From: Pseudomonas tohonis
Lineage (GTDB): Bacteria > Pseudomonadota > Gammaproteobacteria > Pseudomonadales > Pseudomonadaceae
DNA length: 64,000 bases
NCBI RefSeq assembly: GCF_012767755.2
Contig: NZ_AP023189.1
Coordinates: 3,970,001 to 4,034,000 of the forward strand
Direction of reading: 5' to 3'
Both the position numbers and the translations under genes were made by a program. Positions 36,074 to 38,082 of this stretch are shown here, one piece after another (the stretch's first letter is position 1; every line of letters starts with the position of its first letter). The notes under the pieces were generated by a model. It did no database searches. It had not been told where the DNA came from and worked only from the letters and a program-made list of their open reading frames with translations.

Positions 36074-37213
36074 TCAGCCGGGGTAGATCACCTCCTCGGC
36101 CTCGGTGGGCAGCGGCACCTCCCACTTGAACAGCATCCGCGCGATGTCCTGGTTGCGCAGGCTGCTGTCGCGCCGGGTGTTGCGCCGGCGTATCTCCGCT
36201 TCGCTGGCCTCCAGGTACACCAGCTGCACGCGGGCGTCGTAGGCGTAGAGCAGGTCGAGGGTCTTCTTGCGCATCTGCGCCGACAGGTGCGTGGCGTTCC
36301 ACACGAACGGCCGGCGCTCGCGCAGCAGGGCCTTGGCCTGGTCGATGGCGAAGTGCGCGGCGGCGCCCTCGTTCTGCCCATGACGCAGGCCCAGGGCCTC
36401 GCGCGCGTCGTCGTAGGAGATCACCGGCAGGTCCGGCTTGTGTTTCGCCTGCCAGGAGTTCTTGCCGCTGGCCGGCAGCCCGGACAGGACGATCACCTCG
36501 GAGCCCTCGACCTCGCGGTGCAGGGGATAGTCCGGCAGCACCCGCGCCCCCCGGAAATAGCGCACCCGCGTGTGCGCGTCGACGAAGGCCCTGGGCCCGC
36601 GCAGGCAGCCCTCTTCCTCGGCCAGTTGCTCGACCAGTTCGATATCGTCCAGCAGCGCCTGCTTGCCGACATAGTCGCGGCCCTGCATGTCGGCCCGCGC
36701 CACGGCGCAGAGCATCCACACCGGCAGCTCCCAGGACAGCTTGTGCAGGATGAACTCCGCCGAGCGCCCGCTCTTGTCCCCTGCCAGGGCGAAGAACGGC
36801 AGCTGGTGCACGGCGATGATCCGGCAGATGCGCTCGCGCAGGGCGAAGGGCACGCCGGCGCGCCACAGCAGGATGCGCGCGTCGATGGCCCCGCGCCGCG
36901 AATGGCCGGGCTGGCCGATCTTGCCGGTGGCCTCGTCGATCACCGTGGTCGCCGGCTTGGCGATGTCGTGCAGCAAGGCGGCGAAGAACAGCACGAAGCG
37001 TTCGTCGTCGTCCGCCGTGGCGTAGGCGCCCTGCTCCAGCAGCGCCTCGACCACCATCCGGGTGTGGGTCCAGACATCGCCTTCGGCGTGGTAGACCGGG
37101 TCCTGCGGGGTGCTGGCCAACTCGCCCAGCGCCGGGATCAGCGCCAGGCAGGCGTCGAAGTCCGCCGCGCTGCCGGGGGCGGGCACCAGGGCCCGCAGTC
37201 GTTCCATCTTCAT
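36074..37213 (-). CDS. HD-Pnk: HD phosphoesterase fused to 5'-polynucleotide kinase
   Basis: A 379-residue putative RNA end-healing enzyme. The N-terminal HD domain (about 30-210) has His42, His50, the doublet His82-Asp83 (ALLHDIAKPATT), His104 and His136, fitting a metal-dependent 2',3'-phosphoesterase. The C-terminal P-loop kinase (about 238-379) has GLPASGKNS (245-253), the catalytic-type ISYDDAREA (Asp268/269), WNATHLSAQMRKK and the Arg-rich lid RRRNTRRDSSLRNQDIARM. The combination matches Runella HD-Pnk, which heals 3'-cyclic-phosphate and 5'-OH ends. The P-loop residue after Lys251 is Asn rather than Ser/Thr. The start overlaps the RNA ligase stop (ATGA), so healing and sealing enzymes are made together. 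The open frame extending to 37807 is the ligase read in another frame. Confidence 0.85.
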   Translation of the reverse strand: MKMERLRALVPAPGSAADFDACLALIPALGELASTPQDPVYHAEGDVWTHTRMVVEALLEQGAYATADDDERFVLFFAALLHDIAKPATTVIDEATGKIGQPGHSRRGAIDARILLWRAGVPFALRERICRIIAVHQLPFFALAGDKSGRSAEFILHKLSWELPVWMLCAVARADMQGRDYVGKQALLDDIELVEQLAEEEGCLRGPRAFVDAHTRVRYFRGARVLPDYPLHREVEGSEVIVLSGLPASGKNSWQAKHKPDLPVISYDDAREALGLRHGQNEGAAAHFAIDQAKALLRERRPFVWNATHLSAQMRKKTLDLLYAYDARVQLVYLEASEAEIRRRNTRRDSSLRNQDIARMLFKWEVPLPTEAEEVIYPG

Positions 37214-38082
37214 TCGTGTCGTCCTTGTGCGGCAGCCAGGTCGGCCCAGGTCACCACCGGCTCGGGGGCGTAGAGATCGACGCCCGGAGCCAGCAGGTTG
37301 GGGATGAACGGCTGCTGGGAATGGTGGATGCCGGAATCGAGGATGGCCTGGACGAAGTCCGGGCGCACCCACTTGACCCGGCCAAGGGTGTGTTCGGGGC
37401 TCTCGATCTTCAGGTACAGCCCTTCCATCAGCTCGGAGCGGTCGCTGTTGGCCTGGGCGCGGGCCAGGTCCAGCCCCTCGCGCCGCACGGTGTCGACGAA
37501 CGCGTCGCGCCAGCCGGCGGAGCGCGCCAGGGACGGCCGCACCAGCTTCAGCAGGTCCGCCAGGCGAGGCGGCGGCGGGCCCTCGTGGAGCACCGGCACC
37601 GACAGCACCGGGCTGCCGGCCAGCAACGCGCGCCGCGCCCGGGTGGAGAGGAAGGCCCGCTGCTGGCGGTCCCAGATGTCGAACTCGAGGAACAGGTGCG
37701 GCAGCCGGTCGTAGAACACCGAATGCAGCTTGCTGCACACCTCGCCGAACAGTACGTAGCGGTCCTCCAGCCGCTCCAGCAGAAGGTGCTCGTGGGCACG
37801 GGCCCACTGCTTGAACTGGCTGAACTGGCGCTCGCGGCCGCCACCGACCAGGTAGTGGCCGCGGGACTGCAGCAGCAGCTCGCCGCCGGCCGAGAAGCTG
37901 ATGGCGGCGTTGGCGCCGTCGAGCTTCTCCTCCACCACCAGGTGGCAGCCGGCGAGCTCGCGGTAGGCCAGCTGGTCGGCATCGCTGTCACCGATCTGCA
38001 GGCGCGAGGATTCGAGGTGCGGGGTCCTCGGGTATTTGAACAGCTCGAGATTGTGCGCATGGGCGCAGGAATGATCCGTCAT
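37210..38082 (-). CDS. ATP-dependent RNA ligase
   Basis: A 290-residue covalent nucleotidyltransferase that would seal 3'-OH/5'-phosphate RNA ends. The motifs are all visible: I with Lys53 as the AMP acceptor (VVEEKLDGANAAIS), III (LFGEV, Glu114), IIIa (LFLEFDIWD), IV (LMEGLYLKIE, Glu220 and Lys225) and V (GRVKWVR, Lys237). Its size fits a compact Rnl-type ligase without the OB domain of DNA ligases. AGGAG lies before the ATG at 38082. It is the first gene of a two-gene unit with HD-Pnk, the ideal partner since HD-Pnk would produce exactly the ends this enzyme needs. Whether the target is cleaved tRNA or other RNA is unknown. Confidence 0.87.
   Translation of the reverse strand: MTDHSCAHAHNLELFKYPRTPHLESSRLQIGDSDADQLAYRELAGCHLVVEEKLDGANAAISFSAGGELLLQSRGHYLVGGGRERQFSQFKQWARAHEHLLLERLEDRYVLFGEVCSKLHSVFYDRLPHLFLEFDIWDRQQRAFLSTRARRALLAGSPVLSVPVLHEGPPPPRLADLLKLVRPSLARSAGWRDAFVDTVRREGLDLARAQANSDRSELMEGLYLKIESPEHTLGRVKWVRPDFVQAILDSGIHHSQQPFIPNLLAPGVDLYAPEPVVTWADLAAAQGRHE

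Follow-up and report, generated by a model that had tools for sequence, protein, structure and literature searches.

The window analyzed here, a 64,000-nt stretch of the Pseudomonas tohonis genome (contig NZ_AP023189.1, positions 3,970,001 to 4,034,000), contains two genes on its minus strand, at 36074–38082, that probably repair cut RNA. The upstream gene encodes a predicted RNA ligase, and the downstream gene encodes a relative of HD-Pnk, in which an HD domain is fused to a P-loop kinase. A preliminary description of the window, made from its letters and open reading frames (ORFs), had placed both ORFs and assigned these domains. Both ORFs were found where it had placed them, with an ATGA overlap between the ligase stop codon (37212–37210) and the HD-Pnk start codon (37213–37211), and Pfam returned matching domains (PF09414 for the ligase, HD plus AAA_33 for HD-Pnk). 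The most informative feature of the locus was absent from that description: a leader upstream of the ligase gene, in which a short ORF is followed by sequences that can form two competing RNA helices.

In the ligase, a match to the PF09414 (Rnl2/REL-like) profile and the nucleotidyltransferase motifs are both present. The motif set, which we take to be motifs I (KLDG), III, IIIa, IV, and V, is invariant or nearly so in 14 aligned ligases. HD-Pnk has the layout of its family, i.e., an N-terminal HD domain with the H...HD...D pattern and a P-loop kinase, and all 21 sequences aligned share H50, H82, D83, K86, H104, H136, D175, and R179. The aligned proteins were hand-picked from the 120 best of 2168 (HD-Pnk) and 5792 (ligase) matches, and all are at least 61% identical to the window proteins. 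The kinase P-loop does not have the canonical GK[ST]; all 21 aligned close relatives have GK[N/D]. Among more distant members, from phages and bacteria, GK[S/T] or GK[D] is found, and it is not certain that a canonical P-loop is a defining trait of the HD-Pnk family. In sequence searches of the PDB, neither single protein had a match at E-values of 0.01 and 1, and the ligase alignment likewise had none. The kinase half of the HD-Pnk alignment matched L-seryl-tRNA(Sec) kinases, T4 polynucleotide kinase, and chains named “Metallophosphoesterase”, which we take for the kinase domain of bacterial Pnkp. From its family, HD-Pnk is predicted to combine 2',3'-phosphoesterase and 5'-OH kinase activities. 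Runella slithyformis HD-Pnk, reportedly studied by Munir and Shuman, belongs to the same family.

The preliminary description had set conservation of the pair across genomes as a test, which the pair passed. A contig scan yielded 357 HD-Pnk relatives, the best 80 of which were used for locus comparisons (loci, genomes, and genera are given below by L, G, and g numbers where needed). The ligase gene lies directly upstream of HD-Pnk, on the same strand, in 78 of these 80 loci, and the order is kept in Pseudomonas, Burkholderia, Achromobacter, Variovorax, Massilia, Gilliamella, Snodgrassella, and others. The two exceptions are a plasmid locus in which no ligase was found (L033) and a short contig (L036). 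This arrangement is not due to chance. A two-enzyme pathway that would first heal and then seal RNA ends fits the domain content, the residues kept invariant, and the conservation of the operon.

The ligase leader is ~170 nt long in the window, where it follows a putative sigma70-like promoter (Table 1), and the same arrangement is found upstream of the ligase across lineages. The leader ORF has an ATG or GTG start and a TGA or TAA stop, and comprises 8 codons in 53 leaders and 9 codons in 25. A strict regular expression found it in 69 of 79 leaders, and a relaxed one in 78 of 79. The combination of such an ORF with a Shine-Dalgarno sequence was present in 51 of the 69 distinct upstream stretches of these 78 leaders versus 22 of 13,800 shuffles (0.16%); because the native stretches had been preselected for the ORF, the fair native rate is 78/79. 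In a second set of loci, the ORF pattern matched in 33 of 36 ligase-bearing loci, equivalent to 27 of 30 genomes with six duplicate places, although many of these genomes probably belong to species already in the first set. The three non-matches are L169, in which TGG replaces the leader stop; L184, with a 7-codon version seen by eye; and L161, with none. Across 13 distinct Pseudomonas versions of the leader, the codons vary at 6, 6, and 4 sites (first, second, and third position). Since variation affects all codon positions, it is the start, stop, length, and position of the ORF that are conserved, rather than the peptide. In several lineages, a putative −10 element upstream of the ligase is followed by a GC-rich stretch such as GCGCC, as judged by eye, which is reminiscent of stable-RNA promoters.

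A pattern built on the leader matched 63 of the 78 leaders of loci L005–L084, as well as leaders in other genomes, and only three places outside this ligase's leader in 2.89 Mb of loci, both strands included. Rfam returned four weak matches for window positions 37900–38500 at E-values up to 10, all below gathering scores, and no match over the leader in seven loci searched at gathering scores; a known RNA family was rejected for lack of any Rfam match, both for this leader and for the rtcB2 leaders discussed below. Control of the sigma54/RtcR type was also rejected, with 0 of 79 upstream regions matching the two patterns used.

The first of the two helices, P1, joins the end of the leader ORF to the ligase ribosome-binding region. 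Its 9-nt 5' arm begins 0–3 nt past the leader stop (in Massilia, it overlaps the stop), and its 3' arm lies 52–139 nt further downstream, just before the ligase Shine-Dalgarno sequence. Taking the best-pairing motif candidate in each leader, the arms pair at 9 of 9 positions in 61 of 74 leaders, at 8 in 12, and at 7 in one. Covariation was assessed in a MAFFT alignment of 39 of the 74 leaders, with 500 shuffles. Three measures exceeded every shuffle: the fraction of cells that pair (93.4% versus 87.8 shuffled), the number of cells changed on both sides (18 versus 6.9), and the covariation score (0.239 versus 0.136), with versions slid along the alignment scoring lower. The changes on both sides fall at pair 7 (13 rows) and pair 9 (5 rows), while pair 1 occurs as AU, GU, and GC. 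In Massilia, which is misaligned in the 39-row alignment, a further difference, C-G to U-A, is seen.

The 3' arm, with the pyrimidine tract that follows it, also folds onto the Shine-Dalgarno sequence and start codon of the ligase (P2). By eye, the P2 pairing is kept through changes on both sides, with AGCTCC:GGAGC in Massilia and TTTTTCTC:GAGGAC in L020. As the 3' arm is shared, P1 and P2 compete. In folding models, the mean cost of opening the ligase start was 10.4 kcal/mol for ribosome-free RNA; a ribosome at the leader stop raised it to 12.5 kcal/mol, and one on the leader start lowered it to 7.2 kcal/mol. The difference between the stop and early positions exceeded 0.5 in all 78 of the 78 leaders modeled, with a mean of 5.35 kcal/mol. 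When the 5' arm and loop were shuffled (130 shuffles, 26 leaders), the mean difference was 0.22 (sd 1.16), and shuffling only 14 nt at the 5' arm lowered it from 6.24 to 0.96. In codon-by-codon profiles of 18 leaders, most show a step near P-site codons 5–6, where the modeled footprint reaches the 5' arm; the step is at codons 4–5 in L037 and L038. Of the traits of a ribosome-mediated translational attenuator, a short leader ORF with a Shine-Dalgarno-like sequence and a conserved start, stop, and frame is present, and covariation and folding point to competing helices, one of which would sequester the downstream start.

We consider it likely that the operon heals and seals RNA and that stalled ribosomes switch it on. 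The mRNA would open with the 8–9 codon leader ORF. On normal completion of this ORF, the 5' arm just past the stop would be covered or otherwise engaged, leaving the 3' arm to pair with the ligase Shine-Dalgarno sequence and start codon, and ligase translation would be off. If translation were impaired, whether by cleavage of tRNA or rRNA or by an inhibitor of the ribosome, a ribosome would stall within about the first five codons; the 5' arm would then be free to capture the 3' arm, P2 would be weakened, and the ligase would be made, along with HD-Pnk by translational coupling. HD-Pnk would remove the 2',3'-cyclic phosphate and phosphorylate the 5'-OH, and the ligase would seal the healed ends. 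Translational attenuators of the erm/cat type, as commonly described, likewise have a leader ORF, mutually exclusive hairpins, and a start codon that is sequestered until a ribosome stalls. They differ in that the window leader lacks a conserved arrest peptide, and in that the genes downstream of it would repair RNA rather than confer drug resistance.

Table 1. Features of the ligase-HD-Pnk locus (window positions) and of related loci (positions within the locus named).
Feature	Position	Strand	Details
RNA ligase, ATP-dependent	37210–38082	minus	290 aa, ATG start; PF09414, E 2.9e-34
HD-Pnk (HD phosphoesterase domain N-terminal, P-loop 5'-OH polynucleotide kinase C-terminal)	36074–37213	minus	379 aa, ATG start; function predicted from family
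HD domain of HD-Pnk, residues 47–140	36794–37075	minus	PF01966, E 5.9e-7
P-loop kinase domain of HD-Pnk, residues 240–351	36161–36496	minus	PF13671 (AAA_33), E 1.8e-17; P-loop GLPASGKN
Variant kinase P-loop	HD-Pnk residues 245–252	minus	GLPASGK[N/D]-like, not GK[S/T]
Ligase Shine-Dalgarno sequence, start codon, and start of codon 2	38078–38092	minus	Paired in hairpin P2, predicted by folding
3' arm GTCGTCGGT plus pyrimidine tract	38102–38116	minus	Predicted to pair with ligase start (P2) or 5' arm (P1)
5' arm of P1, ACCGACGAC	38179–38187	minus	
Leader ORF, 8 codons	38189–38215	minus	MPRASQHA, then TGA; stops 1 nt before 5' arm
Shine-Dalgarno-like sequence of leader ORF	38219–38225	minus	GGTGAAG
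Putative sigma70-like promoter	38259–38288	minus	TTGACA / TTCAAT, 18-nt spacer; by eye
rtcB2 region with leader ORF	L153:6162–7924		Window's genome
Third RtcB, 511 aa	L152:6337–7872		Window's genome
RNA-repair island	L162:6667–13837	one strand	Order: NADAR, Tpt1/KptA, DUF4291, RtcB2, PrfH, proteasome-like, LMW-phosphatase-like, RNA ligase, HD-Pnk

Several observations weigh against a stall-responsive switch of this kind. (i) In the folding models, 38 of the 130 shuffled controls also gave a difference above 0.5; the Burkholderia profiles (L044, L050) rise gradually, and those of L057, L080, and L084 are weak or irregular. The cost with no ribosome exceeds the early cost by more than 0.5 in 66 of 78 leaders but is lower by more than 0.5 in four, and in leaders such as L044, L050, L055, and L083 the two are about equal, meaning that the ribosome-free RNA would also be on there; in the models, the ribosome-free state is not equally off across lineages. 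A 4-mer of the ligase Shine-Dalgarno sequence is mostly paired in all states, with little change in unpaired probability (18–20 leaders). The model itself is thermodynamic, with assumed ribosome footprints, and its controls are simple rather than dinucleotide shuffles. (ii) In the covariation test, the P1 structure was taken from the first row of the alignment, and two measures did not stand out: only 2 pairs had changed on both sides (1.6 in shuffles, with 317 of 500 reaching 2), and further pair types numbered 7 (6.6 in shuffles, with 319 of 500 reaching 7). RNAalifold recovered four of the nine P1 pairs from the same 39-row alignment, with little energy; the long variable loop and the Massilia rows, misaligned by three columns, work against it. 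(iii) L013, the sole exception to the relaxed scan, has TGG in place of the leader stop, as does L169; these appear to be broken copies of the leader. L161 (G241) has no recognizable leader, and its ligase has an internal TAA. (iv) No conserved arrest peptide was found among the leader peptides, which vary across lineages, so no stall codon is indicated. Not all ribosome-mediated translational attenuators require a conserved arrest peptide. We do not claim codon- or toxin-specific sensing, as the leaders share no residue beyond Pro2, which is itself Ser in Achromobacter.

The enzymes could act as proposed while the leader works as a transcriptional attenuator, with P1 followed by a U-tract or another terminator; the sign of the switch could then be the opposite, with P1 as the off state. 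A run of ~3–5 T follows the 3' arm of P1 in the Pseudomonas, most Burkholderia, and the Gilliamella leaders, as such an attenuator would have it. In Massilia (CTCC), Variovorax (TTCTTCC), and L084, however, this U-tract is missing or interrupted, whereas the pairing to the ligase Shine-Dalgarno sequence is kept through changes on both sides, as judged by eye, and the 52–139 nt enclosed by P1 would be long for a terminator loop as these are usually described. In favor of transcriptional attenuation, PA5471.1, the leader upstream of Pseudomonas aeruginosa armZ, is a proposed transcriptional attenuator (PMC12057347, PMC13041342, PMC3516279). On balance, we regard transcriptional attenuation of the ligase gene as unlikely.

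Stall-responsive translational control gains context from a second RNA repair operon. The preliminary description had called the heal-and-seal pathway independent of RtcB, which can hold for its chemistry only. The window's genome has three RtcB loci, namely RtcB1 (L154), a 511-aa RtcB (L152), and a 382-aa RtcB that overlaps a release-factor-like gene with a GGQ motif and that we read as RtcB2-PrfH (L153), and RtcB2-PrfH, a repair system for 16S rRNA cut by colicin E3, is overrepresented among carriers of the pair. In the window's genus (g1), the four pair carriers have four RtcB matches each, in three loci, and the 14 non-carriers have one each; a match to the 511-aa type is present in all four carriers. 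Across the family, a two-piece match pattern presumed to mark RtcB2 (about 1–75 plus 144–425) occurs in 8 of 9 HD-Pnk genomes versus 11 of 139 others (Fisher p 1e-7). Nine more genomes of g238 without HD-Pnk have another two-piece pattern (1–88 plus about 137–426, with higher scores) and were not counted as RtcB2; adding them gives 8/9 versus 20/139 (Fisher p 5e-6). Among 398 genomes of g235, to all of which both searches were applied, HD-Pnk is present in 22, PrfH (TIGR03072 over its cut-off) in 25, and both in 14, i.e., PrfH is found in 14 of 22 HD-Pnk carriers versus 11 of 376 non-carriers (Fisher p 5e-14, which ignores kinship). These searches scored no more than the top four and seven candidates in each genome, and there is an internal TGA in one of the carriers (G620).

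In some genomes, the two operons are neighbors. In 8 of 9 Burkholderia loci, PrfH-RtcB2 is found immediately upstream of ligase-HD-Pnk, in divergent orientation; in L044, the ligase and the longest RtcB2 ORF are 676 nt apart. In a more distant bacterium (G156, L162), both belong to an RNA-repair island (Table 1), and in two phage contigs (L091, L094), an HD-Pnk-like gene and an RtcB match are no more than a few kb apart. PrfH was detected in 34 of 50 HD-Pnk genomes examined, out of the 80. Against the link stand its absence from the other 16, a genus (g230) in which 11 of 25 genomes have PrfH and none has HD-Pnk, and three Variovorax genomes tested, none of which has PrfH.

The rtcB2 genes also have leader ORFs. 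In P. aeruginosa, the RtcB-like gene armZ (PA5471) is cotranscribed with PA5470/PrfH. Its 13-aa leader, PA5471.1, controls it by way of ribosome stalling, and ribosome-targeting antibiotics induce it (PMC12057347, PMC3516279); loss of the CCA-adding enzyme induces armZ as well (PMC13041342). Among 26 rtcB2 upstream regions, a leader ORF of 12–22 codons preceded by a Shine-Dalgarno sequence was found in all 25 in which rtcB2 was located (it was not located in L049), a count made with no chance control. The ORF has 13 codons in most regions, and that of the window's genome, also of 13 codons, is MQTLITLCRSRLA. Beyond P. aeruginosa, it is also seen in Ralstonia, Massilia, Gilliamella, and L162; in L162, by eye, part of it complements sequence immediately before rtcB2. 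A pattern scan found no copy of the ligase-type leader before rtcB2, whose leader differs. When 25 rtcB2 leaders were folded, with no control, most profiles rose with ribosome position, those of L193 and L199 hardly did, and that of L192 did not; the window's own (L153) went from about 9.8 to 11.8 and back to 10.5. This folding is only suggestive of a similar switch. Given these leader ORFs and the PA5471.1 precedent, the two co-occurring operons seem to share a regulatory logic with different sequences. Like the system proposed here, ArmZ-PA5470 is an RNA repair operon governed by a short leader ORF that is sensitive to stalled ribosomes (PMC12057347, PMC3516279, PMC13041342); it differs in its enzymes and leader sequence, which are unrelated, and in that its leader is described as transcriptional, whereas the ligase leader looks translational.

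The operon itself is already known in kind. In Deinococcus radiodurans, the HD-Pnk protein DRB0098 is encoded in an operon with DRB0099, which weakly resembles macro domains, and the ligase-like DRB0100, which did not ligate DNA on its own (PMC1997131). The window HD-Pnk is 29.7% identical, over 85% of the query, to a plasmid-encoded “AAA family ATPase” of D. radiodurans, which we take to be DRB0098. The likeness lies in an HD plus P-loop polynucleotide kinase fusion beside a ligase-family gene; the differences are that the window partner is a PF09414 ligase and that the P-loop is of the GK[N/D] type. A function for the pair mainly in DNA end repair could be argued from this operon, which is induced by irradiation and for which DNA repair has been proposed (PMC1997131). 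We nonetheless consider DNA repair distinctly improbable, since the ligase belongs to an RNA ligase family (PF09414, RNA_ligase), there is a link between the operon and RtcB2-PrfH, to which Tpt1/KptA and NADAR genes are added in L162, and a translation-sensing leader suits RNA damage. On the other side, Runella HD-Pnk reportedly acts on DNA too. The Pnkp1-Rnl-Hen1 system differs from the pair in having a phosphatase domain that is reportedly of another type, and no Hen1 methylase is found among the neighbors tested with Pfam. Its likeness to the pair lies in the healing and ligation of RNA cut by ribotoxins (PMC4411300).

The pair might instead serve routine RNA processing, as an archaeal ATP-dependent RNA ligase serves RNA circularization (PMC9014305). 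This is very improbable, because its sporadic presence, with the ligase in 4 of 18 genomes of g1 and HD-Pnk in 22 of 398 genomes of g235, argues for an accessory role. Within the family, HD-Pnk occurs in 9 of 148 genomes. The ligase accompanies it in eight of these; in G301, the ninth, HD-Pnk is partial and contains a stop, and nothing matched the ligase. In a class sample of 274 genomes, HD-Pnk is present in four (in G189 over the HD part only) and the ligase in four, with two genomes common to both. The pair is therefore patchy in its distribution, yet conserved where present. Other copies appear broken, including a ligase split over two frames (L058, 9112–9953), the HD-Pnk of G301, and the ligase of G241. 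Twelve other genomes of the family, most of them of genus g238, have a shorter and weaker PF09414-like match without HD-Pnk. The cassettes and leaders of Gilliamella and Snodgrassella (L055–L083), bee-gut bacteria of different orders, are closely similar, suggesting lateral transfer; the leader peptide MPVVNTLS is identical in L055 and L068. Finally, the inverted repeat before the ligase gene could be read as a DNA operator and the short ORF as fortuitous. This is scarcely credible: the arms are inverted repeats near a promoter, but their spacing varies from 52 to 139 nt, and the start, stop, and position of the ORF are kept in 78 of 79 leaders, against 0.16% of shuffles with an ORF and Shine-Dalgarno sequence.

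The surroundings of the pair offer little further guidance. Consistent with what had been described, no RNase or toxin gene was found among the neighbors submitted to Pfam. A crude clustering of neighbors in the 80 loci revealed no conserved third gene; the families found in most loci sit at the pair itself and, judged by position, are probably echoes of overlapping frames, while one cluster, in 30 loci, lies ~4.4 kb upstream. The suggestion of an anti-phage defense is unsupported. Neither protein matched a PADLOC profile, on which ground a known defense system was rejected, and some phages carry such genes themselves: 40 viral contigs have HD-Pnk-like stretches, of which L087, L088, and L091 also have the ligase and L089 a weak match, and the ligase search yielded 11 viral contigs, all of them lacking an HD-Pnk match.

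Few cases are known that show how damage is sensed by bacterial RNA repair genes; in one, an operon is regulated by damaged tRNAs through RtcR (PMC7790460). The leader and the tie to RtcB2-PrfH appear to be new, with no report of either found in searches of the openly licensed PMC literature; a review of RNA repair systems by Burroughs and Aravind may mention the linkage. RtcB2-PrfH protects E. coli from colicin E3 and not from the tRNA-cutting colicins E5 and D (PMC9223846), and ligase-HD-Pnk is a candidate for the gap that it leaves. The chances seem to us evenly balanced that the co-occurring operons form a translation-damage regulon, each with its own stall-reading leader ORF and no dedicated protein sensor, and possibly with divided labor. 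RtcB2-PrfH may then attend to 16S rRNA, and ligase-HD-Pnk to the tRNA-type cuts that RtcB2-PrfH leaves unprotected. The leader is short enough to be placed in front of a reporter, which makes the damage that induces the pair directly testable. If the proposed mechanism is true, the leader would tie HD-Pnk and its ligase to translation damage rather than DNA repair, and a stall-reading leader would offer a general way of sensing damage to the translation machinery that needs no protein.

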